A stretch of DNA of 39,075 bases from Gemmatimonadota bacterium (lineage in GTDB: Bacteria; Gemmatimonadota; Gemmatimonadetes; Longimicrobiales; Gaopeijiaceae): NCBI GenBank assembly GCA_028873825.1, contig JAPPNM010000101.1:1-39075 (forward strand), read 5' to 3'. Numbering within the stretch: position 1 is the first letter of the stretch; every line of letters begins with the position of its first letter. Of the stretch, positions 310 to 23,786 are shown piece after piece. The position numbers and the translations under genes were made by a program. The notes below the pieces were generated by a model. The model did no database searches. It worked only from the letters and a program-made list of their open reading frames with translations, and had not been told where the DNA came from.

Positions 310-881
310 ATGCACGAGCTACGGTCGTCAGGTCTCGCTCGAGACACCTGAGTACGATCTGACGATCGGCTCGGAGCGGGGCATCGCGTGGCGGTGCAGG
401 GACTCGATGGTGCGGCGGGACGACGGGGCGGAGTACGACGCGTGGCTGGAGCAGCTGGCGAAAGCGTCGGGGATCGAGACGCCGAGATGGCCTGCCCGCA
501 TGACCTGCTACCCACCGGAAGAGGGGAAGAATCTTGGGGGAAAACCGGTGCGAAAACCCTCCGTGGTCGGAAATCGGACTTCCCGGGCACACGTCCCCCC
601 TGCCTTACACCTGATGAAAGCGTTGTCAGGACACGATTTACGGCAATTTCTCAACAACGGCCCGATTCTTGCCAAGCCGAATCGTGGCGTCGGCCAGCGG
701 GAGGGCTGATTGAGTCGCAATTGGATCTGTCCGGTGGCCGCTTCCCCGGCACGGAGTGCGCATCGAGCCCCGGCGCGCGTCCGGAGCCGAATCGACACAC
801 GGCGAAAGGAGCGACACGAGGAATCCCATGAAAGTCAACTCAAGGTGGGAGCCTGTAAGTAAACCCCAAGAGGAGCGCAAG
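310..881. other. Stretch without a convincing gene upstream of the Big2-LRR protease
   Basis: No frame here gives a recognisable protein. A short segment at about 407-475 reads MVRRDDGAEYDAWLEQLA, which is protein-like (amphipathic helix) but leads into low-quality sequence, so it may be another gene scrap. The part from about 600 to 700 is less GC-rich than its surroundings and could hold the promoter of the gene at 882, but I see no clear -35/-10 pair. Two Shine-Dalgarno-like stretches occur, before ATG 828 and before ATG 882. Confidence 0.4.
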
Positions 882-8401: not shown

Positions 8402-11326
8402 ATGATGAGACAGTTCCCTCTCGCCGCAGCCCTCGTCCTTCTCCAATCGGCTCCCGCCGACGGTCAGGAGGACTGTGCCGCGTGGGGCACTCGGTCGTTT
8501 TTTTCGGCAAGCACCGCCGAGCAGGTGAGGAGCTGTCTCGAATCCGGAGCGGACGTGAACGCCGTCGGCGAGGGCGGCGCTACACCCCTGCACGTCGCCG
8601 CCCGCTGGACACGGGACCCGGCGGTGATCGTCGTTCTGGTCGACGCGGGAGCTGACGTGAACGCGCGGGACTCGTCCGGCGAAACCCCGCTGCACAGGGC
8701 GGTGGTGGAGGATCGGATTTCTTCGGTCGAAGCCCTCCTGGCCGCGGGCGCGGACGCCAACGCGCGCGACACAAACGGCGCGACTCCGCTATTCGGGGCC
8801 CGGTCGGCCACCATCGCAGCCCTGCTGGAAGCCGGAGCGGACGCGAATGCCCGGGACGAGAGTGGGAGGACTCCGCTGCACCGGGACCTCGATTCGGCGG
8901 CCGTCGTCGCGGTGGTGGCTGCCGGGGCTGACGTGAACGCCCGGGACGAAGGCGGTCGCACCCCTCTCCACTGGATCCACACTTCGGCGGCGGCAGGCGC
9001 TCTCGTGGCCGCCGGGGCGAATGTGGACGCCGTGGACAACCGCGGCGATACCCGCTTGCGCAAGGCGATTGCCACGGAACGCGGGCCCGCCCTGATAGCA
9101 GCCCTGCTGGCCGGAGGCGCCGATGTGAACCAGAGAGACCCCGGCGGTCGGACGCCGCTGCACACGGCGGCGGCAAGAAACCGGGACACTGCCGCGGTTG
9201 TCGCCTTGGTGGCCGCCGGCTCGGATCTGCATGCCCGGGACTCGGACGGCAACACGCCCCTGCACGCATCGTGGTCCACCTCGAACCCGGGGGTCGTGGG
9301 CACCCTGTTGCGGCTGGGCGCGGACCCCATGGCCCGCAACAACGAGGGCCGGCCGGCCGATCCCACGAACTGCGAGAACCTTAGCACCGAGGCGTTCTCC
9401 CGTTTGGCGGATGCCGACGACGTGGCCAGGTGTGTCGATTCCGGCGCGGACGTCAACGCGCGAGACTCCGATGGCAACACATTGTTGCGCCACGCGGTCG
9501 ACAATGCGGATCGGGATATGGTAATGCAGCTGCTGGAAGCGGGCGCCGACGTCGATGCGGCGGGGGACCGGGGCCGGACCCCCCTGCATGCGGCGGTCCG
9601 GGAGGGGGATACGGCCATCGTTCGGGTGCTGGTGGAGGCGGGCGCCAACGTCAACAGGGGAGACCGGGAGGGCGGGACGCCGCTGCACATGGCGACGCGC
9701 AGGGACACGACCATCGTGCGGTTGCTGCTGACCGCGGCCGCTGACATCGGCGCGCGCAACGACCGAGGCGAAACTCCCTTGCATCGTGCGTCCGGCTGGA
9801 GCGGCGACAGCTCCATCGTGGCGCTGCTGTTGGCGGCCGGTGCCGACATTGGCGCACGGGACGAAGTGGGCCGGACCCCGCTGCATTCGGCGTCCGGTCC
9901 ACCTCCGAGGCCGGCCGTGATTGCCGCGCTGCTGGCCGCCGGAGCGGACCCGGGTGCACGGGACCAACGGGGAGCCGCGCCTCTCCACGCTGCCTCCCGG
10001 GCGCAGGGCGACTCCGGAGTGTTCGCGCTGCTGGCGGCCGGCGCGGATGTCAATGCCCGTGACAACGCGGGGAGGACGCCGTTGCACATGGGGTCCTCCC
10101 GGGGATCCGTCGCGGCGTTGCTGGCGGCGGGAGCGGACGTAGACGCCCGAAGTCGAGGTGGCGCAACTCCGTTGCTTGTGCACGCCGGCTCCGCCGTCGT
10201 CAGTGATTTGTTGGCGGCCGGTGCCGATGTTCATGCTAGGGACGGCCGCGACCGCACTCCCCTGCACCGGGCGGCGGAACGGATCCATAACACCGCCGCG
10301 ATCACGGAGCTGCTGGCGGCCGGCGCGGACGTGAACGCCCGCGACCATCAAGGCGCGGTCCCCCTGCATCTGGTGTTCTGGGGCAACTCCGACCGTCAGG
10401 CGATTTCCGAAGTGGTTGCCGCCTTGCTGGCCGCTGGCGCGGACCCGAACGCGCGCACGGAAGGGTACGAGACCCCCCTGCACAGGGCGTCGGAGCGGAG
10501 CGGCAATCTCCTTTCCGTCGAGGCGCTGATCGAGGCCGGCGCCGACGTGAATGCCCGCACCATGGACGGGAGAACCGCCTTGCACATCGCTGCCCGAACC
10601 GGCGATACCACGGTCATCGGTGCTCTGGCTGGCGCGGGCGCGGACGTGAACGCGCGCGACAAGAGGGGCGACACGCCGCTGCATGGCCACTGGACCGGCG
10701 GTCATTCGCGGTGGAACCGGGCGGTGGTGCAGCAATTGCTGGAACTCGGCGCCGACCCCATGGCCCGGAACGACCGCGGCGAATTGGCCGATCCTTCCAA
10801 CTGCCAACAGTGGAACACGTCGGTGTTCATGCGCGGGGCCACCCGCGCCGGGCTGGCCGCGTGCCTGGCGGCGGGCCTGGATGTCAACGCCAGGAACGAA
10901 AGGGGCTTGACGCCTCTGCATCATGTGGCAGCAGAGGGAGACTCGCTCACCCTGGCTCTGCTTCTGGACGCGGGTGCGGATCCCAACGCAGCCGCGCACA
11001 CGGGTGAAACCCCACTCCAACAGGCAATACTCCGGGCGCGAGACTCCGCCGTCGTTGCTCTGCTGGTGAAGAGGGGAGCGGATGTCAACGCGCGCACCCA
11101 CGGCGGCTCGACCGCGCTTCATGGGGCGGCCTCCGGGGGTTCAGAACCCCGGCATAGTGGCCATGCTGCTGGCGGCCGGGGCGGATGTGAACGCACGGGA
11201 CTGGAAAGGGGCAACCCCGCTGTGGAACGCAGGCCGGGAGGAGATAGTCAACTTGCTGCTGGCGGCCGGAGCCGACGCGAACGCGGTGGATCTTTGGGGG
11301 AGAACTCCCTTGCATGCGATCGCTAA
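8402..11326 (+). CDS. Giant exported ankyrin-repeat protein 1, 5' part (before frameshift)
   Basis: Start at ATG 8402 or the adjacent ATG 8405, giving the Sec-type signal RQFPLAAALVLLQSAPADGQ; an in-frame ATG at 8285 would add a non-signal extension. After the signal come ankyrin repeats (AGADVNARD..G.TPLH, about 33 residues each). The arrays are broken by cysteine-pair modules with first Cys codons at 8474, 9371 and 10802. The frame is true ankyrin until the G5 run at 11135-11139; from there to the stop at 11324-11326 it is Arg/Gly-rich nonsense, while the ankyrin pattern continues in the next frame. Removing one G fuses this to the following entry into one protein of 2114 residues (8402-14747). 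Ankyrin repeats bind proteins; the ligand is unknown. The signal places it in the periplasm or outside. Confidence 0.85.
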   Translation: MMRQFPLAAALVLLQSAPADGQEDCAAWGTRSFFSASTAEQVRSCLESGADVNAVGEGGATPLHVAARWTRDPAVIVVLVDAGADVNARDSSGETPLHRAVVEDRISSVEALLAAGADANARDTNGATPLFGARSATIAALLEAGADANARDESGRTPLHRDLDSAAVVAVVAAGADVNARDEGGRTPLHWIHTSAAAGALVAAGANVDAVDNRGDTRLRKAIATERGPALIAALLAGGADVNQRDPGGRTPLHTAAARNRDTAAVVALVAAGSDLHARDSDGNTPLHASWSTSNPGVVGTLLRLGADPMARNNEGRPADPTNCENLSTEAFSRLADADDVARCVDSGADVNARDSDGNTLLRHAVDNADRDMVMQLLEAGADVDAAGDRGRTPLHAAVREGDTAIVRVLVEAGANVNRGDREGGTPLHMATRRDTTIVRLLLTAAADIGARNDRGETPLHRASGWSGDSSIVALLLAAGADIGARDEVGRTPLHSASGPPPRPAVIAALLAAGADPGARDQRGAAPLHAASRAQGDSGVFALLAAGADVNARDNAGRTPLHMGSSRGSVAALLAAGADVDARSRGGATPLLVHAGSAVVSDLLAAGADVHARDGRDRTPLHRAAERIHNTAAITELLAAGADVNARDHQGAVPLHLVFWGNSDRQAISEVVAALLAAGADPNARTEGYETPLHRASERSGNLLSVEALIEAGADVNARTMDGRTALHIAARTGDTTVIGALAGAGADVNARDKRGDTPLHGHWTGGHSRWNRAVVQQLLELGADPMARNDRGELADPSNCQQWNTSVFMRGATRAGLAACLAAGLDVNARNERGLTPLHHVAAEGDSLTLALLLDAGADPNAAAHTGETPLQQAILRARDSAVVALLVKRGADVNARTHGGSTALHGAASGGSEPRHSGHAAGGRGGCERTGLERGNPAVERRPGGDSQLAAGGRSRRERGGSLGENSLACDR

Positions 11327-14300
11327 CGACCCCCGTGGAGTCCGGACGCTACTGGGAATAGGTGCTGATGTGAACGCGCGGGATCTGAGAGGGCGCGCTC
11401 CCCTGCACGAAGCGGCGGAGCGGGGGGACGCCCCGGGGATCGCAACGCTCGTTGCGGCCGGAGCCGACGTGAACGCGCGCGACGCCATGGGGAACACGCC
11501 CCTCCATGCCGCCCGGCTCAACCGGAATCGGCGAATCTCGGTGGTTCGGCAGTTGCTGGAGCTGGGAGCCGATTCGACGGCGCGGAACCAGCGGGGCGCC
11601 GGCGCGGGCCGCGATGCCGGTTTCGGTGAGGTCCCCGGTGTTCCGGGCGCAGTCCGCGGTGTCGATCGCGGCGGGGTTCCCGGCGCCGGTTCCGGCAACT
11701 GCAACGACTGGCAGAACTGGCTCCAGGAGACCCTCGCCGCGGAAACCCTGCGGGCGTGCCTGGAGTCCGGCTGGGACATCAATACTCGGAACTACATCAA
11801 CGAGACTCCTTTGAACTACGTGGTTCGGATGAGGAATGCGGGTCTGGCAACTTTGCTTCTGGAGGCGGGAGCGGACCCGAACGTGCCGAGTAGCGCCAGG
11901 GAAACCCCGCTGCACGGAGCAGCCGAGTGGGGCGATCTCGCCGTCGTGGACCGCTTGCTGGAGGCGGGAGCGGACGTTGGTGCATTGGATCAGTACGGCG
12001 CAACCCCGTTGCATCGGGCGGTAGACCCCGAAGTGATCAGACGACTTTTCGAGGCCGGCGCGGATGCGAAAGCACGGGACAGCGGCAGCAACACCCGGTT
12101 GCATTGGTCGCTTGGCGAGAACCGTCTCACGCTCGACGTACTTCTGGAGGCCGGGGCCGGCGCGGATGTGAACGCTCGCAATGCCGACCGGGAGACCCCG
12201 CTCCACAAGGCATCGGGGCGATCCGAGAACGAACTGATGACATGGCTGCTGGAACTGGGCGCCGACCCGAACGCCCGTGACCGAAGGGGGTGGAGTCCGC
12301 TTCACGCCGCGGCCATGTCCCGGGCGGCCGCCGGGTCGCCGATCGCCACTCTGCTGGAGGCGGGCGCGGACCCCAACGCGCGTGCGACGGCGGACTACGA
12401 CGGGCGCGCGCAGCACGCGGATGCCGGCGACACCCCTCTGCACATGACCGCCGGAGCCAGCGACGATTCGTCGCGAGTTGCCCTCCTGCTGGCGGCCGGC
12501 GCCGATCCGAACACGTCGAACGCCAAAGGGGAAACTCCCCTGCACCGGGCGGCCGGGTCGAAGCACCTTGCCAATGTGCGTGCGCTCCTGGCGGCCAGCG
12601 GGGATGCCGACAGGCGAACCGAAACCGGCGACACGCCCCTGCACCTCGGGGTCACACACGGCCGCAGATCGGCTGTCGGACCTGCCAGTTGGTGGTACTG
12701 GGACTCATGGCGTCCGATCTGGAAGGTCACCCCGCATCCGGCGGACACCGATTGGGCAGCCTACCAGGAGAAACATCCTCGCGACACGGCGCTGGTCGGT
12801 GCTCTGGTGAGGGCTGGGGCGGACCTCAGCGCGCGCAATGACAGGGGCGAAACCCCGCTGGGGAGAGCCGCCAGGTACGGAAGCGCGCGGCTGGTTGAAA
12901 AGCTCTTGGAACTGGGGGCGAACCCCGAACCGGGGGCCGAACCGGCGACCGAACCGTTGCCGCCGGTTTGTGAGTGGGGTAAGTACGATCTGTTCGCGGT
13001 GGCTCCGGTCGCGACCCTCAGGGGTTGCCTCCAAGCCGGCGCGGATATCGATGTCGGTCGCGTAACGGGCGAGACGCTGCTGCAAACGCTGATTCGGCAA
13101 TTGAAATGGAATCGCAACTTCGCTCCGGCCGCCATCGCCGCCCTGCTGGATGCGGGCGAGGATGTGGACGCACGGGACCGGGGGGGCGCGACCCCTTTGC
13201 ACCTCGCCGCTGGGGAGCCCGCCGCCGTGGCGGCGTTGTTGAAGGGTGGCGCGGACGCCAACGCAGCCGACGATCGGGGCAGCACGTCTCTGCACTACGC
13301 CGCACGGGCGAACAGCACCGAGAGCGTCAGAATGCTCCTGGAGGCCGGGGCGGATGCCGAAGCGCGCGACGAGACCGGTGCCACGGCGCTGCACGAGGCC
13401 GCCGGGGGTCCGCTTGCCTCGGTCCAGCTTCTGACACGCGCCGGTGCCGACATGGACGCCCGCGACGACAACGGGGAGACTCCGCTTCACAGGGCCGTGA
13501 GGAGGGGTAATCCCGCCGCTACCACCCGCCTGCTCGAACTGGGGGCCGACCCGACGCTGACCGACAGCTCGGGAAGGGTTGCCGATCCGGGCGACTGCCG
13601 GATGTGGCCGACACGTGCGTTCTTTGCCGGAGCCACGGCCGCACACGTCGCCGAGTGCCTGGAGGCAGGTGCGGATCTGGTGTCCATGGAGGGTCACGGG
13701 TACCACAGAACCGGCACGGGCCGGATGATCTCGTATCCGACTGGATCCACCCCCCTCCATGTGGCCGCCGCCTGGACCTCGGATCCGGACGTGATCACCG
13801 TGCTGGTGGGCGCCGGGGCGGACGTACTCGCGCGGAACCAGGGCAACGATTCCCCCTTGGACTACGCCGCCCGCGCAAACCCCAATCCCGCTGTGATTGC
13901 CGCGCTGATTGCGGCGGGGGCCGAGGTCAACGCATGGTCGACGGACGCCACTCCCCTGCACGAGGCTGCGGGCAACGCGAATCCCGAGGTTTCGGTCGCT
14001 TTGTTGGAGGCGGGAGCCCGGATGGAGGCGCTGGCGGCGGGAGGCAGAACGCTGCTGCACCGGGCGGCCGGCGAGAACGCAAACCCTGAGATCGTCACCG
14101 AGCTGGTGAGCCGGGGTGCCGACGTGAACGCAAGGATGGCGGCGGGAAGAACCCCTTTGCACGAAGCGGCTGCGAAGAACAGTAATCCGGCCGTGGTCCG
14201 AGCACTCCTGCAGGCCGGTGCGGAGGTCAACGCCCGGGGCACGGACGAGGAAGTCTGGGAGGCGAACACCATGGCGGACAGGTTGGGTTTCATCAACGCA

Positions 14301-14747
14301 TGGGGCCAGGAATGGGAGGTACCGCGCCGGGCGGGAAACAGGACCCCCCTGCACGAAGCCGCCGTGAGGACGAAGAATCCTGCGGTCGTCGCGGCGCTGA
14401 TCGAAGCCGGGGCCGATGTGCACGCACGCGGCGACTTGGACTGGATGCACGAGCCCGATGCGACCCCGCTCTACTGGGCCGCTACGGTCAACCCCGACCC
14501 GGCCGTGGTGGAGCTCCTCGCACAGGCCGGGGCGGATGTGAACGCGCGTAGCGGATCCGGCCGGACGCCGCTTCACATCGCGGCCCTGCGCAACCCGGTG
14601 GTGTTCCCGAAGCTGCTGGAACTGGGTGCCGATCCCACGGTCCTCGACCGGGAGGGCAAGACCCCCATGGACTACGCGGTCAAGAATCTGTGGCTGCAAG
14701 GTATGGAGGAGGTGAGGCGGTTGATGGGGGAAAAGGAGAACGAATGA
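11082..14747 (+). CDS. Giant exported ankyrin-repeat protein 1, 3' part (after frameshift)
   Basis: Ankyrin sequence resumes in this frame at about 11140 (VQNPGIVAMLLAAGADVNARD); the first 20 or so residues from ATG 11082 are out-of-phase filler, so separate initiation is unlikely. Further cysteine-pair modules have first Cys codons at 11700, 12969 and 13596. A Gly-rich, low-complexity linker of about 35 residues (around 11595-11695) replaces the usual run-in to the module at 11700. The C-terminus reads NLWLQGMEEVRRLM..KENE, matching the end of ankyrin protein 2. The TGA stop overlaps an ATG, and the next gene starts 18 nt downstream with its own strong SD, so the two giant genes are probably co-transcribed. 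Confidence 0.8.
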   Translation: MSTRAPTAARPRFMGRPPGVQNPGIVAMLLAAGADVNARDWKGATPLWNAGREEIVNLLLAAGADANAVDLWGRTPLHAIANDPRGVRTLLGIGADVNARDLRGRAPLHEAAERGDAPGIATLVAAGADVNARDAMGNTPLHAARLNRNRRISVVRQLLELGADSTARNQRGAGAGRDAGFGEVPGVPGAVRGVDRGGVPGAGSGNCNDWQNWLQETLAAETLRACLESGWDINTRNYINETPLNYVVRMRNAGLATLLLEAGADPNVPSSARETPLHGAAEWGDLAVVDRLLEAGADVGALDQYGATPLHRAVDPEVIRRLFEAGADAKARDSGSNTRLHWSLGENRLTLDVLLEAGAGADVNARNADRETPLHKASGRSENELMTWLLELGADPNARDRRGWSPLHAAAMSRAAAGSPIATLLEAGADPNARATADYDGRAQHADAGDTPLHMTAGASDDSSRVALLLAAGADPNTSNAKGETPLHRAAGSKHLANVRALLAASGDADRRTETGDTPLHLGVTHGRRSAVGPASWWYWDSWRPIWKVTPHPADTDWAAYQEKHPRDTALVGALVRAGADLSARNDRGETPLGRAARYGSARLVEKLLELGANPEPGAEPATEPLPPVCEWGKYDLFAVAPVATLRGCLQAGADIDVGRVTGETLLQTLIRQLKWNRNFAPAAIAALLDAGEDVDARDRGGATPLHLAAGEPAAVAALLKGGADANAADDRGSTSLHYAARANSTESVRMLLEAGADAEARDETGATALHEAAGGPLASVQLLTRAGADMDARDDNGETPLHRAVRRGNPAATTRLLELGADPTLTDSSGRVADPGDCRMWPTRAFFAGATAAHVAECLEAGADLVSMEGHGYHRTGTGRMISYPTGSTPLHVAAAWTSDPDVITVLVGAGADVLARNQGNDSPLDYAARANPNPAVIAALIAAGAEVNAWSTDATPLHEAAGNANPEVSVALLEAGARMEALAAGGRTLLHRAAGENANPEIVTELVSRGADVNARMAAGRTPLHEAAAKNSNPAVVRALLQAGAEVNARGTDEEVWEANTMADRLGFINAWGQEWEVPRRAGNRTPLHEAAVRTKNPAVVAALIEAGADVHARGDLDWMHEPDATPLYWAATVNPDPAVVELLAQAGADVNARSGSGRTPLHIAALRNPVVFPKLLELGADPTVLDREGKTPMDYAVKNLWLQGMEEVRRLMGEKENE

Positions 14748-14764
14748 GGGCAGGAGGGCTTGAA

Positions 14765-16591
14765 ATGAGTAAACTCCAGGTTACTTCGTGTAAAGCAGAG
14801 ATTACATGTGCCAGGTCACCTCCCTCTCCGATCAGGCTGTTCATTCCCGCCACAGCCCTCGTCCTCCTCTGCCCGGCGCCCGCCAGCGGCCAGCCGAAGT
14901 GCGAGGACTGGGGCGCCCGGCACTTCTTCATCCGAGCCTCTGCCGAGCGGGTCGCGCAGTGCCTCGGAGGCGGCGCGCGGGACGATGACGGCGCGACCGT
15001 CCTCCATGTGGCGGCAGGTTGGACCAACGAAGCCGCGGTGATCGACCTTCTGGTCGAAGCCGGCGAGGACATCAACGCACGGGACGCGAACGGCCGGACG
15101 CCGTTGCATTCGGCGGCGGCCACGAGTCGCCGGCCGGAGGTGGTCGCAGCTCTGATCGCCGCCGGTGCCGATCCGAATGCCCGCGATGCCGCCGGCAACA
15201 CGCCCTTGCACGCGTCCTCGTCGAGCGAGATCCCCGGCGTGGTCCTGAAGCTGCTGGAGCTGGGGGCGGATCCCACGGCCCGCAACGACAAGGGCCGGAT
15301 AGCCGATCCGGCGGACTGCGAAAACTGGAGCACCCGGGCTTTCGCCGGAGTGGCGGATGCGGAGACGGCGGCCGAGTGCGCCGAGTCCGGCTGGGACGTC
15401 AACGTGCGAAACGCCGACGGGGACAGTCCTCTGCACCAGGCGGTGCGGGCCATGGATACGGTGATGATTGCGTCGCTGCTGGAGATCGGCGCGGATCCCG
15501 ATGCGGCGAACGACGAGGGCGCCACCCCGTTGGAAATCGCGCTCACGGAGAACCCTGCCGGGGGGAAATTCGTGCAGGGTGCGGTCTCGGATTCAGGTGC
15601 GGTGGAAAATCCGGACACGGCCCCTCGGCGCTATGTCGTCACTGACCCCGCTGCCACGATCGTGGCGCTCCTGCTGGATGCGGGGGCGGATCCGAGTGTG
15701 AGGGATCGGTTTTCCGGCCGTACTCCCTTCCACTGGGCGTCATCACGCATGGACTCCGAGGCTATTGCCCTGCTGGCGCGAGCGGGGGCGGACCCGAACG
15801 CATTGGACGCCCGTGGCCGCACCCCCCTTCACGAGGCGGCGGCGACCTTCGGTCACAATCCCTCGGTCATCGGGGTTCTGGTGGACGCTGGAGCCGACAT
15901 CGACGCGCGCGACCGGAGCGGCAGGACTCCGCTGCACGCGGCGGCTGCCCGAGGCTGGAAACCCGAAACCGTTGTCGCACTGGTGGCCGCCGGTGCCGAC
16001 CTGACCGCTGTGGATTTCGAGGGCAACACACCCCTGCACGCATCGTGGTCCAACGACCCCGCGGTCATCACCACCCTGTTGCAGTTGGGCGCGGATCCCA
16101 TGGCCCGCAACAACGCGGGCCAACCGGCCGATCCCACCAACTGCGAGAACGCGAGCACGGAGGGGTTCGCCCGGGCGGCGGACGACGACGATGTGGCCAG
16201 GTGCTTCGAATCCGGCGCGGGCGTCAACGCGCGAGACTCCGATGGCAGCACCCCGCTCCACCACGCGGTCGGCAACGGGGACCTGGCCATGGTGGTTCGG
16301 TTGCTGGATGCGGGTGCGGACGTCAATGCGGGAGACTGGGGCCGGACACCGCTGCACAGGGCGGCCGAGCGGGGGGACACCGCCATTGTCCGGGTGCTGG
16401 CTGAGGCCGGGGCGAATCCGGATGCGCGAAACGACCGGGGTGAGACCCCTTGCACAATGCATCACGCCACGGCAGCGACGGCACGGCGATTGTCCGCGCG
16501 CTCGCGGAAGCGGGCGCGAATCCGAATGCGCGGGACGACGATTGGGGGACACCGCTGCACGCCGCCGGACGGAATCGTAACGCCGCTGTGA
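14765..16591 (+). CDS. Giant exported ankyrin-repeat protein 2, 5' part (before frameshift)
   Basis: ATG 14765 follows AGGAGG by 7-8 nt, a strong RBS just after the stop of the preceding paralogue. The N-terminus carries about 20 polar residues before the hydrophobic stretch RLFIPATALVLLCPAPASGQ, which aligns with the signal of protein 1. The polar extension is encoded by the operator-like element, so this start may be a product of rearrangement. Cysteine-pair modules begin at 14900, 15317 and 16142. At about 16446-16452 (GACCCCTTGCAC, where other repeats have one more base before TGCAC) the ankyrin pattern moves to another frame; the remainder to 16591 is Arg-rich nonsense. Restoring one base gives a protein of about 2158 residues up to the position where the paralogue stops. 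Confidence 0.8.
   Translation: MSKLQVTSCKAEITCARSPPSPIRLFIPATALVLLCPAPASGQPKCEDWGARHFFIRASAERVAQCLGGGARDDDGATVLHVAAGWTNEAAVIDLLVEAGEDINARDANGRTPLHSAAATSRRPEVVAALIAAGADPNARDAAGNTPLHASSSSEIPGVVLKLLELGADPTARNDKGRIADPADCENWSTRAFAGVADAETAAECAESGWDVNVRNADGDSPLHQAVRAMDTVMIASLLEIGADPDAANDEGATPLEIALTENPAGGKFVQGAVSDSGAVENPDTAPRRYVVTDPAATIVALLLDAGADPSVRDRFSGRTPFHWASSRMDSEAIALLARAGADPNALDARGRTPLHEAAATFGHNPSVIGVLVDAGADIDARDRSGRTPLHAAAARGWKPETVVALVAAGADLTAVDFEGNTPLHASWSNDPAVITTLLQLGADPMARNNAGQPADPTNCENASTEGFARAADDDDVARCFESGAGVNARDSDGSTPLHHAVGNGDLAMVVRLLDAGADVNAGDWGRTPLHRAAERGDTAIVRVLAEAGANPDARNDRGETPCTMHHATAATARRLSARSRKRARIRMRGTTIGGHRCTPPDGIVTPL
14769..14809. promoter_or_regulatory. 41-bp operator-like element, copy B, overlapping a gene start
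   Basis: Same architecture as the element at 8202-8242: palindromes GTAAAC-N4-GGTTAC (14769-14784) and GTAAAG-N4-GATTAC (14790-14805), 21-bp period, and identical 41-bp total length. Here the half-sites are better preserved on the left. It begins 2 nt after the start codon of ankyrin gene 2, so a bound regulator would block transcription elongation, or the element marks an old upstream region captured into the coding frame. Confidence 0.5.
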
Positions 16592-19500
16592 TCAAGGCGC
16601 TGCTCGCCGCCGGTGCCGACCCGGAGGCTCGGGATCGGGGGCGGTACGGCACGCCGCTCCATGCGGCGGCGGGTGCGCAGGACGGGGCAGCCGCCGTGGC
16701 CGCATTCTTGGCGGCTGGCGTCGATGTGGACATCCGGGACGACTCGGACAGGACACTGTTGCACGTCGCACTCTTCCGCGCTGATCCTGCCGTCGCGGCC
16801 GCGTTGCTTGCGGCTGGCGCGGACGTTGACGCGCGCGACCGCAGCGGCCGGACCCCCCTGCACTCGAACCGGGATCCTGCTGCCGTGGCGGCACTCGTAG
16901 CCGCGGGAGCGGACGTCAACGCACGCTCACGAGGCGCGGATACCCCCCTGCACGACGCGGCGCGTTCGAGCCCCTCCTCCGCGCTGGTCGCCGCCCTCCT
17001 GGCGGCCGGTGCGGACGTGAGTGCCCGGAACGGTGACGAGAGGACCGCGCTGCACGAAGCGGCGGATTGGGGAGACGATCCTGCCGCCATTGCCATCCTG
17101 GTCGAGGCCGGCGCGGATGTGAACGCCACCGACGACGAGGGACGGACCCCGCTGCACGAGGTTGCCACCGGTCGCGAACCGGAGATCGTCACCGCGCTGG
17201 TGGCCGCGGGTGCGGATGTGAACGCGCGTGACAACGCGGGCAACACGCCGCTGCATGCGGGGTGGTCGGGCGGCAGGAGGGAGCTGGCCCCAGCCATGGT
17301 CGAGAGGCTGCTCGAGCTTGGTGCGGACCCTCTGGCGCGAAACGACCTGGGCGAGGTGGCCGATCCCACCCACTGCGAGAACTGGGGCAGTCCATCGTTT
17401 CTGGCGGCAGCCGGGCCCGAACAGGTCAATGCCTGCCTGGCCGCGGGCCACGACATCAACGCCCGGGACGACCGTGGTGCCACGCTCCTGCACCATGCGG
17501 CTGGGAGGGCGGACTCGGCCGCCGTGGTCCTCCTGCTCAAGTCGGGCGCGGACCCCAACGCGCGCGACCACCGGGGCGAGATGCCGCTGCACTATGGGCG
17601 GGCGATCAGGGATACTGCGATCGTGTCGCGACTGCTCGAAGCCGGGGCGAACGCGGACGCCCGCAGCCACGACGGTACAAGCCTGCTGCACATCGCCTCC
17701 GGTTCCGGTCCGGTCACCCGGCTCCTGGAAGCCGGTGCGGAGGTCAACGCCCGCAACTGGACGGGAGCCACGCCGCTCTTCGGGGATCGTGGTGAAGATG
17801 TCGTCAAGACGCTCCTGGCGGCCGGAGCGGATGCGAAACTGGTGGACGCCTGGGGTCGAACGCCCCTGCACTTCCACTGGGGCTACGGCCTGCTGTTGGC
17901 GGCTGGTGCCGATGTGGACGCGAGGGACTTCAGGGGACGGACCCCCTTGCACGAGGCGGCCGAATACGAGCGTGGATCCGTCATCGCCGCGCTCGTGGCG
18001 GCCGGCGCCGATGTGAACGCAAGGGACGCCATGGGCAACACGCCCCTGCACATCGCCTGGCACAACCACAACTCCGTCGTCGAGAGGCTGCTGGAGCTGG
18101 GGTCAGACCCAACGGCGCGCAACGACCGCGGCAGGACCGCCGAGCCGCGCAAATGCGAGAACTGGGACACCCGATTGTTCAGGGAATACGTCGACATCGA
18201 GGGGTTGCGCGAATGCGTGGCCTCCGGCTGGGACATCGACGCGCCCAACTCCGCCGGCGAGACGCCCCTGCACAAGGTGATCGGGAGGTGGCACCCGAAG
18301 ACGGACGAGCGTGCCGCGGCCCTGCTGTTGGAGCTGGGAGCCGACCCGAACGTGCCCGATGCTCACAGGATGACCGCGTTGCATAGGGTGGCCCAGAGGG
18401 GCTGGGGCGCTACCCGCCTCGCGGCGCTGCTGCTGGAGGCTGGCGCCGACGTGAATGCGCGGGACGAACTCGGTGCGACTCCGCTGCATCGTACGACGGG
18501 TAATGACGCCCAGGGTGTTGCTGCCCGTGCGCTCCTCGATGCCGGAGCGGGTGTGAACGCACGGGACGAGAGCGGCGACACCCCGCTGCACTGGGCTCTC
18601 CGTGGCCGACCCGCCGACCTCGTGGCCGCAGTACTGCTGGAAGCTGGCGGGGACGTGCACGCGCTCAACAATTCGAACGAGACGCCCCTTCACGCCGCGA
18701 TGCAATCGTCCTCCGAGGAAGCGGTCGCAAAGCTGCTGGAACGGGGCGCGGACCCCAACGCGCGAGCCGCCGACGGGCGCACTCCGCTGCACGTCGCGGC
18801 CCGGTATTCGTTCTCGGGCACGACGCCGATGATCGCCGCGCTGCTCGAAGCCGGAGCGGACGGGAACGCCCGTGCCGCGAGCGGTGAGACTGCGCTTCAC
18901 CTGGCGGCCGCCGACAATGACGACATCGCACAACTTCAGGCCCTGCTGGCCGGTGGGGCGGACGTCAACTCGACGGATACCCTGGGCGCCACGCCGCTGC
19001 ACCGCGCGGCAGCCCGGCAGAACCTCGCCACCGCAAACGCGCTCCTGGAGGCCGGGGCCGACGCCAACGCACGCGCCGACAACGGGGACACCCCCCTGCA
19101 CCGCGCGGTTGCGACCGCGAAGGACCGCCATTCCCCCTTCACGTACCTTCCCTACCACGCACTGCCATGGTTTCATCGGGGGAACCATCCCGCCGAGCCG
19201 CTGGCCTCCCACCATGACACGGCGCTCGTCGCCGCGCTCGTTCGCGCCGGGGCGGACATGGAGGCGCGCAACGACAGCGGGGAAACCCCGCTGGGAAGCG
19301 CCGCAAGGCATCACAACGGCCTGCTCGTCGGCAAGCTCCTGGATTTGGGAGCACCCCCGGAACAGGGAGTGACGGCACCTACCCCTTCCGCGATACCGGT
19401 GTGCGACTGGGCCAGCCATCATCTCTTCGCCGTGGCTCCGGTTGTCACTCTGGAGGGGTGTCTGCGGTCCGGAGCGCAGGTGAGGATCGCCACCACCTCC

Positions 19501-22500
19501 CGGGGCGAGACCCCGCTGCACCTGCTGATGCGCAACCTCGCATGGACCGGGTCCTTCGCCCCCGCCGCCATCTCGGCGCTGATCGGAGCGGGGGCGGACG
19601 TCGACGCGCGGGATGACGGGGATGATACCCCGCTGCACCAGGCCGCGGGGGACCCCTACGCAGTGGCCGCCCTCCTGGCCGGTGGCGCCGAGGTGAACGC
19701 CCGCGGCCGGGGAGGTCGCACGCCCCTGCACGTCGCCGCGGCGGCTCTCTTCGACAACACCGTCACCGCCACGACGCTCATGGACGCCGGAGCCGACGTC
19801 GCTGCGCGAGACGACTCCGGTGCCACGCCCCTGTACTGGGCGTCGGGACGCTCTGGGCACCCCTCCATGGTCCGGCTCCTGATCGCAGCCGGTGCCGACG
19901 CCAACGCACCCGCCGACAACGGCGAGACCCCTCTTCACCGAGCCGTGCGCGAGCAAAACCCCGCCGTGGCGGCGCTCCTGCTGGAACTCGGCGCCGATCC
20001 CGCGCTGGCGGACGACTCGGGCACCGTCGCCGACCCCGCGAGCTGCCACCGATGGCCGGATCCGGTGTTCTTCCATCATGCCACGGCGGACATCGTGGCC
20101 AGCTGCATCGAGGCTGGCGCGGAACTGAACGCGGAATCGCACTACGATCATGTGCGAAACCCATCGGGCCGGCTGGAATCGTACGCACCCGGCTCCACAA
20201 CGCTGCATGTGGCGGCCGGATGGACCGGCGACCCCGCCGTGATCACAGTGCTGCTGGAGGCCGGAGCGGATGTGAACGCACGCAACCGGCGCCACTACAC
20301 GCCCTTGCACTACGCCGCCCGCGACCAGAGCGATCCCGCCGTCGTCGCCGCCCTGGTCCGGGCCGGGGCCGATGTGAACGCCTGGGCAACCGGGCCGCGC
20401 CCCGGCTACTACGACCAGTGGGATGTCACCCCATTGCACGAAGCCGCGCGGAACGGGAGCGCGGCCATTGCCGCCGCGTTGCTCGATGCGGGAGCCGACG
20501 TGAATGCGGTGGCGGCCGGTGGAAGGGTGCCGCTCCACCGTGCGGCCGCCGAAAACGCGAATCCGGCGGTGATCGCCGAACTGGTGAGCCGGGGAGCCGA
20601 CGTGAACGCGAAGCTGCCGGGGGGCAGGACCCCGCTTCATGAAGCGGCGGCAGGGAACCGCAACCCGGAGATCCTGACCGCACTCCTGGACGTCGGTGCC
20701 GAGGTGAATGCGCCCGGCGCCAGTGACGAGGTATGGTCCGACCGCGAGAGCATGCCGGCCTTTGCTGTGTCGATGTCCTTCGCCACCACCCCGTGGGGCG
20801 GACTCGTCACCCCGCCGGATCACGCGGGAATCCGAACCCCCCTGCACGAGGCCGTCATGGGTCACGGCGACTCCGCGGTGGTCGCCACGCTGATCGCAGC
20901 CGGCGCCGACGTGAACGCCCCGGGCGACCTGGACCGCGTGTTCGAGCCCGCCGCGACCCCGCTCCACTGGGCCGTGTCCGCCAACCCCCACCCGGCCGTG
21001 CCGCGGATGCTGGTACAGGCCGGAGCGGACCTGAACGCCCGTGGTGGGGCAGGGTGGACGCCGCTTCACCTGGCCGCGCTCCGCAACCCCATCCTCTTCC
21101 CGGTCCTGCTGGAGCTGGGTGCCGATCCCGAGGCCGTCGACCGGGAGGGCAGGACTCCGGTGGACTACGCGATCGAAAACCTGTGGCTGCAGGGCTGGGA
21201 GGTGGTGCGGCGGTTGAGGGAGAAGGGGGAGAACGAGCCGGGACCGGCGGGGATCCGGGCGGGGGAGCGGGGTTTCGGCCATATTCGTCGTACTCGCCAC
21301 GAGAACAACGAATGCCGCCATGATCCGCCGCTCGCCAGCTCTGCCCCTCCTCCTCGCCGCCGCGTGCGGGGACGCCCCGAACGCGGACCCCTCCGCGCAC
21401 GCCGGCCGGCTCCGCGACAGCGCAGGCGTTCGCATCGCCGAGAACCGGCGCCCCCCCGCCGGATCCAGGCTCGGTTGGGAGATCGGTCCCGAACCCGCCG
21501 TGACGATCGGGGCCGCCGAGGGCGAGGCCCCGTACCTTCTCGGCCGCGTTGGAATGGCCGCCACCCTCCCCGGCGGCGGCATCGTCGTAGCCGACGGCGC
21601 GTCGAACGAGGTGCGGATCTTCGACGCGGACGGGGTCCACCTGAGGAGCTGGGGAGGATACGGGAAGGGTCCGGGCGAGTTCGACGAGCTGCGCGGGGTC
21701 GCGCGGTGGCGGGGCGATTCGATTGCCGCGTGGGACCGCTTCCCCTACCGCGGCGTGGCGATCTTCGACGCCGAGGGCAACCTGGGCCGGGTGGTCGCGC
21801 TGGGAATGGGCGATCCGGACAGGAGCATCTCGATCCTTCGCGGGGGATCGTTTCTCGCCGATCATTGGCTTCACGGCGAGCACGGTCACGGCGGGCACGG
21901 GTCCGGACCGACGGTGCGGGAGCAGGTCTTCGAGATCCGGGACGCCGACGGCGTGCGAACCGCGGCGCTGGCCGCGCTTCCCGGTCGCGAGCTCTTCGTG
22001 TCCCCAAACCGGGAATTGCCCGTGGAGACGATCGTCCCCTTTTCGCGCTCGGTCTACGCCGCCGCGTGGCGCGATCTGGCCCTGGTCAGCCCCAATCGCA
22101 GGTACGAACTCCGCGCCTACGCGACGGACGGCACGCTGCGCCGCATCGTCCGGGTGGACCACGCCCCGGTTCCGGTGACCGATTCGCTCGTCGACCTCGC
22201 CCGCGCGGAGTGGGGAGGCGGCGACCGGTTCGACGGGATGCCCCTGCCCGAGACCCTCCCCGCCTTCGCGACGGTCTTGGCGGACGCGCTGGACCATCTG
22301 TGGGTGAGGGAATACCCCGTGCCGGGGCGGGAATCCGCCTCTCCCGTGTGGACGGTCTTCGATCCCGAGGGCCGCGCGCTCGGGTTCGTGGAGACGCCGC
22401 CGCGGCTGCTGGTGTACGAGATCGGGGCCGACCACGTGTTGGGGAGGTGGTTCGGCGATCCGGGGGTGGTGCAGGTGCGCGTGCGGCCCCTTCGGCGATA

Positions 22501-22668
22501 GTCCGTGAACCTCTTGGCGGCGGCGCCCACGCGCGGCGCCCCGACCGGCGGCCCCACCCTGGTCTTCGCCGCTCAAGACCGCTACGATGGACCGTCGGAG
22601 CCAATCGCCGCCGTCCGTCCGAAGGAAATCCATGCCTTGCAGGACCCCGCCCCCGCTGCGCTTCCTAG
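16450..22668 (+). CDS. Giant exported ankyrin-repeat protein 2, 3' part, with native stop lost
   Basis: Continues ankyrin protein 2 after the 1-nt frameshift (HNASRHGSDGTAIVRALAEAGA at the junction; ATG 16450 is probably not a real start). Cysteine-pair modules begin at 17374, 18154, 19402 and 20043. The conserved C-terminus NLWLQGWEVVRRLREKGENE ends at 21237. There the paralogue has a TGA, but here the frame reads CCG and stays open to TGA at 22666-22668. The added 476 residues are Arg/Pro-rich, overlap the beta-propeller gene in another frame, and look like chance open frame. So the meaningful protein ends near 21237, although the encoded stop is at 22668. Order and spacing of modules match protein 1, with one extra module near the N-terminus. 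Confidence 0.8.
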   Translation: MHNASRHGSDGTAIVRALAEAGANPNARDDDWGTPLHAAGRNRNAAVIKALLAAGADPEARDRGRYGTPLHAAAGAQDGAAAVAAFLAAGVDVDIRDDSDRTLLHVALFRADPAVAAALLAAGADVDARDRSGRTPLHSNRDPAAVAALVAAGADVNARSRGADTPLHDAARSSPSSALVAALLAAGADVSARNGDERTALHEAADWGDDPAAIAILVEAGADVNATDDEGRTPLHEVATGREPEIVTALVAAGADVNARDNAGNTPLHAGWSGGRRELAPAMVERLLELGADPLARNDLGEVADPTHCENWGSPSFLAAAGPEQVNACLAAGHDINARDDRGATLLHHAAGRADSAAVVLLLKSGADPNARDHRGEMPLHYGRAIRDTAIVSRLLEAGANADARSHDGTSLLHIASGSGPVTRLLEAGAEVNARNWTGATPLFGDRGEDVVKTLLAAGADAKLVDAWGRTPLHFHWGYGLLLAAGADVDARDFRGRTPLHEAAEYERGSVIAALVAAGADVNARDAMGNTPLHIAWHNHNSVVERLLELGSDPTARNDRGRTAEPRKCENWDTRLFREYVDIEGLRECVASGWDIDAPNSAGETPLHKVIGRWHPKTDERAAALLLELGADPNVPDAHRMTALHRVAQRGWGATRLAALLLEAGADVNARDELGATPLHRTTGNDAQGVAARALLDAGAGVNARDESGDTPLHWALRGRPADLVAAVLLEAGGDVHALNNSNETPLHAAMQSSSEEAVAKLLERGADPNARAADGRTPLHVAARYSFSGTTPMIAALLEAGADGNARAASGETALHLAAADNDDIAQLQALLAGGADVNSTDTLGATPLHRAAARQNLATANALLEAGADANARADNGDTPLHRAVATAKDRHSPFTYLPYHALPWFHRGNHPAEPLASHHDTALVAALVRAGADMEARNDSGETPLGSAARHHNGLLVGKLLDLGAPPEQGVTAPTPSAIPVCDWASHHLFAVAPVVTLEGCLRSGAQVRIATTSRGETPLHLLMRNLAWTGSFAPAAISALIGAGADVDARDDGDDTPLHQAAGDPYAVAALLAGGAEVNARGRGGRTPLHVAAAALFDNTVTATTLMDAGADVAARDDSGATPLYWASGRSGHPSMVRLLIAAGADANAPADNGETPLHRAVREQNPAVAALLLELGADPALADDSGTVADPASCHRWPDPVFFHHATADIVASCIEAGAELNAESHYDHVRNPSGRLESYAPGSTTLHVAAGWTGDPAVITVLLEAGADVNARNRRHYTPLHYAARDQSDPAVVAALVRAGADVNAWATGPRPGYYDQWDVTPLHEAARNGSAAIAAALLDAGADVNAVAAGGRVPLHRAAAENANPAVIAELVSRGADVNAKLPGGRTPLHEAAAGNRNPEILTALLDVGAEVNAPGASDEVWSDRESMPAFAVSMSFATTPWGGLVTPPDHAGIRTPLHEAVMGHGDSAVVATLIAAGADVNAPGDLDRVFEPAATPLHWAVSANPHPAVPRMLVQAGADLNARGGAGWTPLHLAALRNPILFPVLLELGADPEAVDREGRTPVDYAIENLWLQGWEVVRRLREKGENEPGPAGIRAGERGFGHIRRTRHENNECRHDPPLASSAPPPRRRVRGRPERGPLRARRPAPRQRRRSHRREPAPPRRIQARLGDRSRTRRDDRGRRGRGPVPSRPRWNGRHPPRRRHRRSRRRVERGADLRRGRGPPEELGRIREGSGRVRRAARGRAVAGRFDCRVGPLPLPRRGDLRRRGQPGPGGRAGNGRSGQEHLDPSRGIVSRRSLASRRARSRRARVRTDGAGAGLRDPGRRRRANRGAGRASRSRALRVPKPGIARGDDRPLFALGLRRRVARSGPGQPQSQVRTPRLRDGRHAAPHRPGGPRPGSGDRFARRPRPRGVGRRRPVRRDAPARDPPRLRDGLGGRAGPSVGEGIPRAGAGIRLSRVDGLRSRGPRARVRGDAAAAAGVRDRGRPRVGEVVRRSGGGAGARAAPSAIVREPLGGGAHARRPDRRPHPGLRRSRPLRWTVGANRRRPSEGNPCLAGPRPRCAS
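21320..22501 (+). CDS. Six-bladed beta-propeller lipoprotein
   Basis: 393 residues. MIRRSPALPLLLAAACGD is a short lipoprotein signal (lipidated Cys16). The body has blade motifs of the six-bladed beta-propeller family (BF4221/NHL-like): V.IFDADG..LRSWG, then GKGPGEF (115-121), then a second FDAEG blade. Such proteins are common outer-envelope lipoproteins of Gemmatimonadota and Bacteroidota, and their ligands are mostly unknown. The start has no strong SD; ATG at 21312 would stop after three codons. It lies entirely inside the read-through frame of the preceding ankyrin gene, but the codon pattern and lipobox identify this frame as the real one. Confidence 0.85.
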   Translation: MIRRSPALPLLLAAACGDAPNADPSAHAGRLRDSAGVRIAENRRPPAGSRLGWEIGPEPAVTIGAAEGEAPYLLGRVGMAATLPGGGIVVADGASNEVRIFDADGVHLRSWGGYGKGPGEFDELRGVARWRGDSIAAWDRFPYRGVAIFDAEGNLGRVVALGMGDPDRSISILRGGSFLADHWLHGEHGHGGHGSGPTVREQVFEIRDADGVRTAALAALPGRELFVSPNRELPVETIVPFSRSVYAAAWRDLALVSPNRRYELRAYATDGTLRRIVRVDHAPVPVTDSLVDLARAEWGGGDRFDGMPLPETLPAFATVLADALDHLWVREYPVPGRESASPVWTVFDPEGRALGFVETPPRLLVYEIGADHVLGRWFGDPGVVQVRVRPLRR

Positions 22669-23786
22669 GTTCTGTCGAGTGGGTTCCGATGGCCGCAGTA
22701 GCGGCACTCCTGGCCTTCGCCGGCGCCTGTGAGCGTGAAGACGCCGTCGGCGACGCCGTCTTCACGCCAGACGTAATCGGCACCGCCGCCCTGCCGCCGA
22801 GCGAGAGCGACGAGGTCTCTCTTCTTGCGGACGGGCGCGTCGCGTGCGTAGTCGATTCCTACGAGACCCGGGTCCGCTGCCTGGACGCGGAGGGCGCCGT
22901 CGCGGGAGTCTTCGGCCGAAAGGGGGAGGGTCCCGGCGAGTTCGACACCCCGGCCTACCTCGCTCGCGGCGAGGAGGGTACGGTTGGCGTCCATGACCTC
23001 GGGCTGGGCCGCTTCACGGTCTTCGAGCCGAAGGGCGCCTACTTGTCGGATGTCTTGGCGCCGGTCGGCCGGTTCGAGCCCCTCCGGTCGTTCGGCGCGG
23101 TCCTCTCGGGTGTGGAGGCGGACATCATGGTGATGCTCGGCGTCGAGACCTCCGGTTCGCTGATGACCAGGTACGACGTGAACGTCGCCACCGGGGAGGT
23201 CGTGCGGGAGGAAGCGTCGCCGGCCGGGCCGTGGGACGTCCCGTGCGGGGAAGTCACCTTCGGCATCCCGGACCGGGCGGAGGGGTGGGTATTCGTGGCT
23301 TGCGAGGGCCACATGGTCTTCGTCGGGGACACCGGCGAGGTCGCGGTGCTGCGTGCGCCGACCTACGTCGCGGAACTCCCGGACGAACGGGACGTGGCCC
23401 GCCGGGAGGAAATGCTCATGGCCCTGAACCGGGCGAACGGCTTCCCCGCCTCCACGGACGTCGACGAGCGGCTGGAGGAATACCGAGCCGCCCCGAAGAG
23501 GTACTTTCTGGGCACGAGACACCAGTTGGTCGACGCTGCCGGCCGCTACTGGATCGCCACCCAGCGCGACACGCACGAATGGTCGTACCTGGACGTGTAC
23601 GAGGATGCCGAATACGTGGGGTCGGCGAAGGTCAGGGACCGGCTGAGGGGCTTCGACCTCCTGGGCTCGACCTTGGTGGTTCTGGTCGAGAGGCAGGTCG
23701 GCGCAGGCGATTCCGGCGGGATTCCGGACCGCGGGCTGGACTGGTACGACATCGGAGACCTTGCGGGTGTGAGGAACCCGGGATAG
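22632..23786 (+). CDS. Six-bladed beta-propeller lipoprotein, second copy of the family
   Basis: 384 residues from ATG 22632, which has AAGGA 5 nt upstream; an in-frame ATG at 22587 lacks this and adds a charged leader. The hydrophobic stretch MAAVAALLAFAGAC gives a lipobox Cys at 33. Blade motifs include RCLDAEGAV, GEGPGEF (98-104) and FTVFEPKG, as in the preceding gene, but overall similarity is low, so this is an old paralogue rather than a recent duplicate. It sits 130 nt after that gene on the same strand and may be co-expressed. Role unknown; likely an envelope-exposed binding protein. Confidence 0.85.
   Translation: MPCRTPPPLRFLGSVEWVPMAAVAALLAFAGACEREDAVGDAVFTPDVIGTAALPPSESDEVSLLADGRVACVVDSYETRVRCLDAEGAVAGVFGRKGEGPGEFDTPAYLARGEEGTVGVHDLGLGRFTVFEPKGAYLSDVLAPVGRFEPLRSFGAVLSGVEADIMVMLGVETSGSLMTRYDVNVATGEVVREEASPAGPWDVPCGEVTFGIPDRAEGWVFVACEGHMVFVGDTGEVAVLRAPTYVAELPDERDVARREEMLMALNRANGFPASTDVDERLEEYRAAPKRYFLGTRHQLVDAAGRYWIATQRDTHEWSYLDVYEDAEYVGSAKVRDRLRGFDLLGSTLVVLVERQVGAGDSGGIPDRGLDWYDIGDLAGVRNPG

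Follow-up and report, generated by a model that had tools for sequence, protein, structure and literature searches.

Ankyrin arrays are known mainly as cytoplasmic and free of disulfides; what, then, do pairs of regularly spaced cysteines do in two very long ankyrin proteins that carry probable export signals? This question is raised by a 39,075-nucleotide stretch of DNA from a Gemmatimonadota bacterium (contig JAPPNM010000101.1 of GenBank assembly GCA_028873825.1), hereafter the window, which is contig C52 of a 3.31 Mb genome assembled in 183 contigs. Its segment from 8402 to about 21280 is filled by two adjacent ankyrin genes, in whose products a short module with two cysteines recurs. We think it likely that this module is an N-terminal capping ankyrin repeat with a predicted internal disulfide, which opens each block of these exported ankyrin proteins.

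The first-pass annotation, made from the DNA letters, had read the locus as two giant proteins. These are not two open frames: each gene switches reading frame once (around 11100 and around 16450, respectively), which gives four open frames; all four are Pfam ankyrin arrays, with PF00023 scoring 237-564 bits against a cut-off of 21.1. The frames, recognised from their translations and the Pfam Ank families, and the signals ahead of the arrays are the following:

8402..11326, + strand: gene 1, first open frame; signal peptide and ankyrin arrays with modules 1-3, the array exiting this frame around 11100.
8402..8467, + strand: probable Sec signal peptide of gene 1; a hydrophobic stretch, then SAPADGQ.
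11082..14747, + strand: gene 1, second open frame, in a different reading frame; arrays with modules 4-6 up to the C-terminus.
14690..16591, + strand: gene 2, first open frame; signal peptide and arrays with modules 1-3, the array exiting this frame around 16450. The start is provisional, 14690 being the first start codon in frame.
14810..14890, + strand: probable Sec signal peptide region of gene 2, read from the sequence; a hydrophobic stretch, then APASGQ.
16450..22668, + strand: gene 2, second open frame; modules 4-7 and their arrays, up to about 21280. There is no stop where the array ends, and the stretch from there to 22668 is not ankyrin-like and overlaps the next gene.

The count of 13 intact cysteine pairs, six in gene 1 and seven in gene 2, stands as first made. 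In the list below, the paired numbers are the positions at which the two cysteine codons begin; all modules were placed by both the residue pattern and a cysteine-masked profile, and further support is named where it exists:

8453..8566, + strand: module 1.1, Cys 8474/8534; right behind the signal peptide.
9347..9466, + strand: module 1.2, Cys 9371/9431; L in place of W.
10778..10897, + strand: module 1.3, Cys 10802/10862.
11685..11792, + strand: module 1.4, Cys 11700/11757; spacing 19; without F.
12960..13055, + strand: module 1.5, Cys 12969/13026; spacing 19; C-x-W form.
13572..13685, + strand: module 1.6, Cys 13596/13656.
14891..14977, + strand: module 2.1, Cys 14900/14960; right behind the signal peptide.
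15293..15412, + strand: module 2.2, Cys 15317/15377.
16118..16237, + strand: module 2.3, Cys 16142/16202; A in place of W.
17350..17469, + strand: module 2.4, Cys 17374/17434; also in AlphaFold model 1 (C120/C140).
18130..18249, + strand: module 2.5, Cys 18154/18214; also in AlphaFold model 1 (C380/C400).
19402..19482, + strand: module 2.6, Cys 19402/19459; spacing 19; C-x-W form; lowest profile score, 8.4 bits.
20020..20136, + strand: module 2.7, Cys 20044/20104; also in AlphaFold model 2 (C41/C61).

Twelve of the pair positions given at first are right, but the last pair begins at 20044 and not at 20043. The spacing of 19 or 20 residues was correctly described, being 20 in 10 of the 13 pairs and 19 in the remaining three (11700, 12969 and 19402), as was the scarcity of other cysteines: all 26 in-frame cysteines in the 4,211 mature residues of the four frames belong to the pairs. 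The pattern C-x2-3-W-x4-F-x10-C holds in its general form but is to be corrected to C-x1-2-W-x4-5-F-x10-11-C, with the W missing from two of the 13 modules (9371 and 16142) and the F from one (11700). Likewise, the ADP run-in that had been described ahead of the modules occurs in seven of them, with AEP once, but is absent from those at 11700, 12969 and 19402 and from the two that adjoin signal peptides. The distances between modules near the C-terminus do match between the paralogues (in gene 1, 1269 bases and then 627; in gene 2, 1248 and then 642), and the architecture is conserved in both, as had been proposed. When cysteine is masked in the profile, so that matches do not depend on it, all 13 module places in the window are recovered; the intervals add up to 478 residues (11%). 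Of the 26 cysteines, 25 fall within them, and the one left over (at 19402) is a single residue outside the weak 8.4-bit interval of module 2.6. The 13 pairs are genuine, beyond chance.

Does the pairing persist in other genes? The masked profile was applied to the window and 55 loci, which as 56 sources provided 151 open frames, counting matches that covered at least 31 of the 40 profile positions, with shorter ones dropped beforehand. Exactly two cysteines are present in each of the 329 matches of at least 20 bits, a set of which 324 are distinct sequences and from which the 20 profile-building rows were also drawn; the spacing is 20 residues in 295 of them, 19 in 24, 23 in nine and 25 in one. 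Between 15 and 20 bits, eight of 12 matches have two cysteines, two have one and two have none; in one of the single-cysteine cases (L065) the first cysteine is just beyond the aligned part. Between 5 and 15 bits the figures are four with two cysteines and 17 with none (n=21), and below 5 bits none of nine matches has any. These cysteine-free, low-scoring matches look like ordinary repeats. Sixty-eight frames have at least 900 residues and at least three modules; of their 615 cysteines 472 fall within modules, and outside these cysteine accounts for 143 of 70,886 residues (0.20%).

These counts bear on a deflationary explanation, namely that the module is a mere degenerate ankyrin repeat spread by duplication, with the cysteines as functionless baggage. 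Its second half is indeed an ordinary repeat (see below), and the genes form a duplicated, tandem family. However, the other positions of the module vary, with a mean column identity of 51% in an alignment of 20 modules (A2), while both cysteines are kept in every one of the 329 matches, and cysteine is scarce elsewhere in the same proteins; we consider this explanation extremely improbable. A degenerate module in L037 has lost the usual W and F and kept both cysteines.

What kind of unit, then, holds the pair? A consensus built from the 133 spacing-20 sequences among 150 randomly chosen modules has C (100%), W at +3 (92%), F at +8 (99%), A at +12 (93%), V at +17 (71%), C at +20 (100%), L or I at +21 (91%) and G at +24 (98%). 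Against a profile made from 120 of the proteins' ordinary repeats, the second half of the module, which corresponds to ankyrin helix 2 and the GADVNA turn, gives an alignment (HHalign 94.8%), whereas the first half gives none (0.1%). Hence, the suggestion that the module is a unit outside or between the ankyrin arrays is not borne out. That it is not a named domain agrees with the searches: the module alone has no significant match (best E 0.24 in Pfam, 0.21 in NCBIfam and 0.073 in PHROGs), and none of 20 modules taken alone reaches E<=1 against any Ank model of Pfam or NCBIfam.

Candidate identities were rejected in turn. Named Pfam, NCBIfam or PHROGs domains gave one-member matches only, at E 0.07 or worse; as for a solved relative of the whole module, among the best 60 of 208 matches to PDB sequences the best stretch begins no earlier than position 23 of 40. 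The whole proteins score over the cut-off for ANK_LRRK2, GATase_7 (25.6 against 25) and NF038106 (the PA4642 family, in three of the four frames), which we take to be cross-matches because many weak repeats sum up while no single stretch passes; NF038106 has no match to the module alone. The arrays match the Ank, Ank_2 and Ank_4 families (PF00023, PF12796 and PF13637) strongly, and ordinary repeats can be aligned with the module along its helix 2 and GADVNA turn, but its first half (ADPxxCxxWxxxxFxxA) stands in place of the TPLH helix start and brings with it the near-invariant cysteine pair. Judged by sequence, this first half is new, and the module is a strongly conserved ankyrin-repeat variant rather than a new domain. 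No published description of it was found in the literature searched, which left out most subscription papers.

The combination of invariant cysteines with conserved aromatics close by (the W and F of the 133-sequence consensus) might alternatively mark a site at which the pair binds a metal or cofactor, or acts as a redox switch. This appears very unlikely to us, as there is no conserved histidine or extra cysteine to complete such a site: the invariant or nearly invariant columns of the 20-row alignment are C, C, G, W and F, to which the larger consensus adds only the alanine and the leucine or isoleucine.

Structure prediction places the module more precisely. Two AlphaFold models, one of a 511-residue stretch with two modules (model 1, pLDDT 86.1) and one of the C-terminal stretch (model 2, pLDDT 80.4), both predict a short turn at or near the first cysteine (C1), a helix, and a second helix containing the second cysteine (C2). 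For module 2.4 the helices span residues 126-131 and 134-142 around C120/C140 of model 1 (pLDDT 84-94), and for module 2.7 they span 47-52 and 55-63 around C41/C61 of model 2 (pLDDT 90-95). The models thus make the module part of the ankyrin fold, in which it is the opening repeat of a block, and the distinct inter-array unit of the first-pass annotation is not borne out. That annotation had set its stapled unit against cysteines buried in ordinary ankyrin helices, a description which applies by half: by alignment, C2 stands at the core-leucine position of helix 2.

The capping position is suggested by comparison with solved structures. Among the matches listed, 14 of 15 designed ankyrins of 150-170 residues begin to align with model 1 at residues 119-122, C120 being the first cysteine. 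On their own side the alignment begins at the very start of the chain (residues 1-4 or 12-13), and the rmsd is 1.7-2.3 A over 145-151 residues; the 15th starts at residue 113. The first residues of DARPins are their N-terminal cap, as is known for the family and as described in the accessible portion of PMC8683736. Natural ankyrins that align from model 1 residues 1-9 across the first module have an rmsd of 9 to 22 A, as against 3.9 A for 5et1_A, which aligns from residue 74; the solenoid may therefore be kinked at the modelled module, or its angle there may be uncertain. As a separate observation, where other modules lead into a short turn, model 2 predicts a long beta-hairpin finger behind module 2.7 (model strands 72-78 and 84-91; window 20137-20196).

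The models also bear on the partner of each cysteine. Were the two cysteines to bond between modules or between chains, they would cross-link blocks or build fibres; the modules do stand at regular distances, nearly all of them with both cysteines, and pairing of this kind would leave the parity unchanged. Yet the pair is retained in every module irrespective of how many modules a frame is seen to have (from 1 to 6), and the models place both cysteine positions at one and the same end of a helical hairpin; both points favour a bond inside the module. We regard bonding between modules or chains as unlikely.

The earlier proposal that the proteins are exported is supported: probable export signals are found ahead of the first modules, and modules 1.1 and 2.1 are the first repeat of their chains, right behind the signal peptide. 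The signal of gene 2 was outside the scored set. That set comprised 67 frames chosen by the rule that no repeat-like motif precedes the first module, five frames with an internal first module having been set aside. A hydrophobic stretch (12-residue mean of at least 2.0) lies ahead of the first module in 51 of the 67, whereas of 335 control windows 34 have one. Among the misses are contig ends, wrongly caught internal modules and frames slightly under the mark. A lipobox-like motif is present in 13 of the 67, of which at least two look accidental. The genome also has genes of the oxidase type: DsbA-family matches occur at four sites, and a VKOR adjoins one of these.

In the mechanism that we favour, the protein would be exported via its signal peptide, a lipoprotein signal in some paralogues, and would be built as a string of ankyrin blocks. 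Each block would open with a module in which C1 lies in a short turn ahead of helix 1, the W and F in the helix-1 region and C2 in helix 2; ordinary repeats follow, and the block often closes with an LLELGADPxARNxxGxxADP repeat, behind which the next cap begins. Modules are indeed seen to stand behind either a signal peptide or such a closing repeat. A disulfide formed within the module would tie the beginning of helix 1 to where helix 2 ends, giving a stable block edge outside the cytoplasm, and the cap would protect the open edge of the block. The blocks may bind proteins of a host or a neighbour, contact with an animal host being the probable setting.

Several observations weigh against this capping mechanism. 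One near-module (L046, 17.8 bits) has a tyrosine at C1 with C2 kept, and the signal of gene 1 in the window scores 1.81, below the mark of 2.0. C2 replaces a normally buried leucine, and a buried free cysteine could be conserved too. In model 1, the two helices of module 2.5 (C380/C400) are predicted at pLDDT 63-76 only, and two larger designed ankyrins, 6moi_A and 4o60_B, start to align behind the module, at 146-147. In model 2, the alignments of ten designed ankyrins do begin at the module (39-41), yet their rmsd is 4.0-21.7 A, and five more begin later (91, 116, 117, 227 and 228). The predicted cap register is weakened because the fold comparison of model 2 is mixed and one modelled module is of low confidence; model 2 supports the register weakly. 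The blocks may be separate domains or one kinked solenoid.

The frame switches raise the further question of whether both window genes are decaying pseudogenes, in which case the architecture seen in this genome would be a relic. Both genes contain frame breaks, and five of the seven module-bearing ankyrin genes of the genome are interrupted by frame changes or stops (the two genes of the window and those on C139, C37 and C73 having been examined); nearby in the window, the genes for IspG, efflux and GltX have uninterrupted frames. On the other hand, none of the 13 cysteine pairs is damaged, and in-frame cysteines outside the pairs are absent from the mature parts. Further, relatives have long open frames, measured stop to stop: 1426 residues in L029, 1884 in L035, 1799 in L036, and 1998 and 1922 in L025. 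Finally, misassembly within repeats would look identical, and at the breaks gene decay and assembly error cannot be told apart by their appearance. We judge decay to be an improbable explanation that nevertheless carries appreciable weight.

How widely is the cap distributed? The genome holds five further module-bearing ankyrin genes on three contigs (C139 and C37 with two each, C73 with one), and with the 13 of the window included it has 29 cysteine pairs, at spacings of 18 to 23. The C37 locus (L010) consists of two near-duplicate lipoprotein ankyrin genes, of which the copy with the long open frame is without one module and a part of the array present in the other copy. In a search of relatives with alignment A2, 23 of 59 genomes (own and relatives) match, namely the own genome, 20 of 22 others of the genus, and two from elsewhere in the family, each belonging to a different genus; no match was found in the same-genus genomes G001 and G019, nor in 24 genomes from other families of the order. 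The matching genomes have from 1 to 55 copies of the module. Across a sample of the phylum, 33 of 395 genomes match (own included), from four of 138 genera.

For a scan of contigs, the module alignment lacked a sufficiently conserved stretch and a single C-terminal stretch was used in its place. The named loci with this stretch are from Gemmatimonadota metagenome-assembled genomes (MAGs; L035-L038), a MAG titled Rhodothermaceae (L039) and a Lysobacterales MAG (L040). The last was rejected as a carrier, as it has an ordinary ankyrin and its genome is devoid of the module; in its order, none of 151 genomes matches, a weak negative obtained with no positive control. In the family around the L039 genome, as drawn in this analysis, five of 16 genomes match, and the same five are the matches among 244 genomes of its class. 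A tree of 58 C-terminal regions, built on short repeats and with some inner forks open, unites the three Rhodothermaceae-family rows in one clade (100/100), which is nested in a nine-row clade (100/98) along with three rows of the window genus and three of a genus from another order. The other two matching genomes of the Rhodothermaceae family were left out of the tree, their C-terminal ends being outside the extraction rule. If the MAG taxonomy is right, the place of these three rows among Gemmatimonadota sequences points to a probable transfer between phyla for the cap-bearing genes of this family (L039 and L077-L080). Occurrence in phages was rejected: in viral contigs one stretch fits a pattern and none is confirmed, and ten phage records, all below 60% identity, mostly carry the names of ankyrins or immunity proteins from phages of Wolbachia and mycobacteria. 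To judge by their names, the genomes RHO1 and SB06xx may be from sponges, which the literature search did not confirm.

Other genes of the window include a 1963-residue open frame (756-6647, + strand) with a lipoprotein-like start, Big_2 bacterial Ig-like domains and then leucine-rich repeats; its product is another eukaryote-like surface protein of the same cluster. Two adjacent genes at 21320-22501 and 22587-23786 (+ strand) have lipoprotein-like starts and no Pfam match at 1e-5, and we take their products to resemble beta-propeller lipoproteins.

The closest structural parallel to the predicted cap is the DARPin N-cap (e.g. 2XEH, 1SVX and 4JB8), which is likewise the first repeat of a block with a two-helix fold. 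The module differs from it in being natural, exported, present several times per chain and equipped with a cysteine pair; in the accessible main text of a study of the DARPin N-cap (PMC8683736) the word disulfide is absent. The Dot/Icm ankyrin effectors share generic ankyrin repeats with the window proteins but differ from them, as the latter have export signals and cysteine caps; all scores against the NCBIfam models AnkY, AnkH, AnkG and AnkX are under the curated cut-offs (e.g. 412 against 600 bits for AnkY). Sponge symbionts, too, have ankyrin-rich bacterial proteins; these are described as modulating phagocytosis by amoebae (Nguyen et al. 2014, cited in both PMC4850255 and PMC8163846), and ankyrin and other eukaryote-like repeat proteins are reported to be enriched in sponge-associated MAGs, with Gemmatimonadota among the lineages discussed (PMC8163846). 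A cysteine-pair cap goes unmentioned in the accessible portions of these two papers.

More tentatively, and with more doubt than confidence, we suggest that these are horizontally shared extracellular ankyrins composed of independently folding, disulfide-capped blocks, which have reached up to 55 caps per genome in one Gemmatimonadota genus, have been passed to Rhodothermaceae, in another phylum, and serve as a changing repertoire of binders on or around cells that live with an animal host. On this suggestion, the multi-cap proteins might by analogy be the natural counterpart of multi-domain DARPins. Pfam, NCBIfam and PHROGs miss the cap, and cap-bearing proteins therefore match general ankyrin models only. 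If the capping mechanism is true, the module would furnish a simple sequence mark for extracellular ankyrin proteins and a natural stapled N-cap, and such a conserved, transferable way to use ankyrin arrays extracellularly would explain the export of very long arrays.

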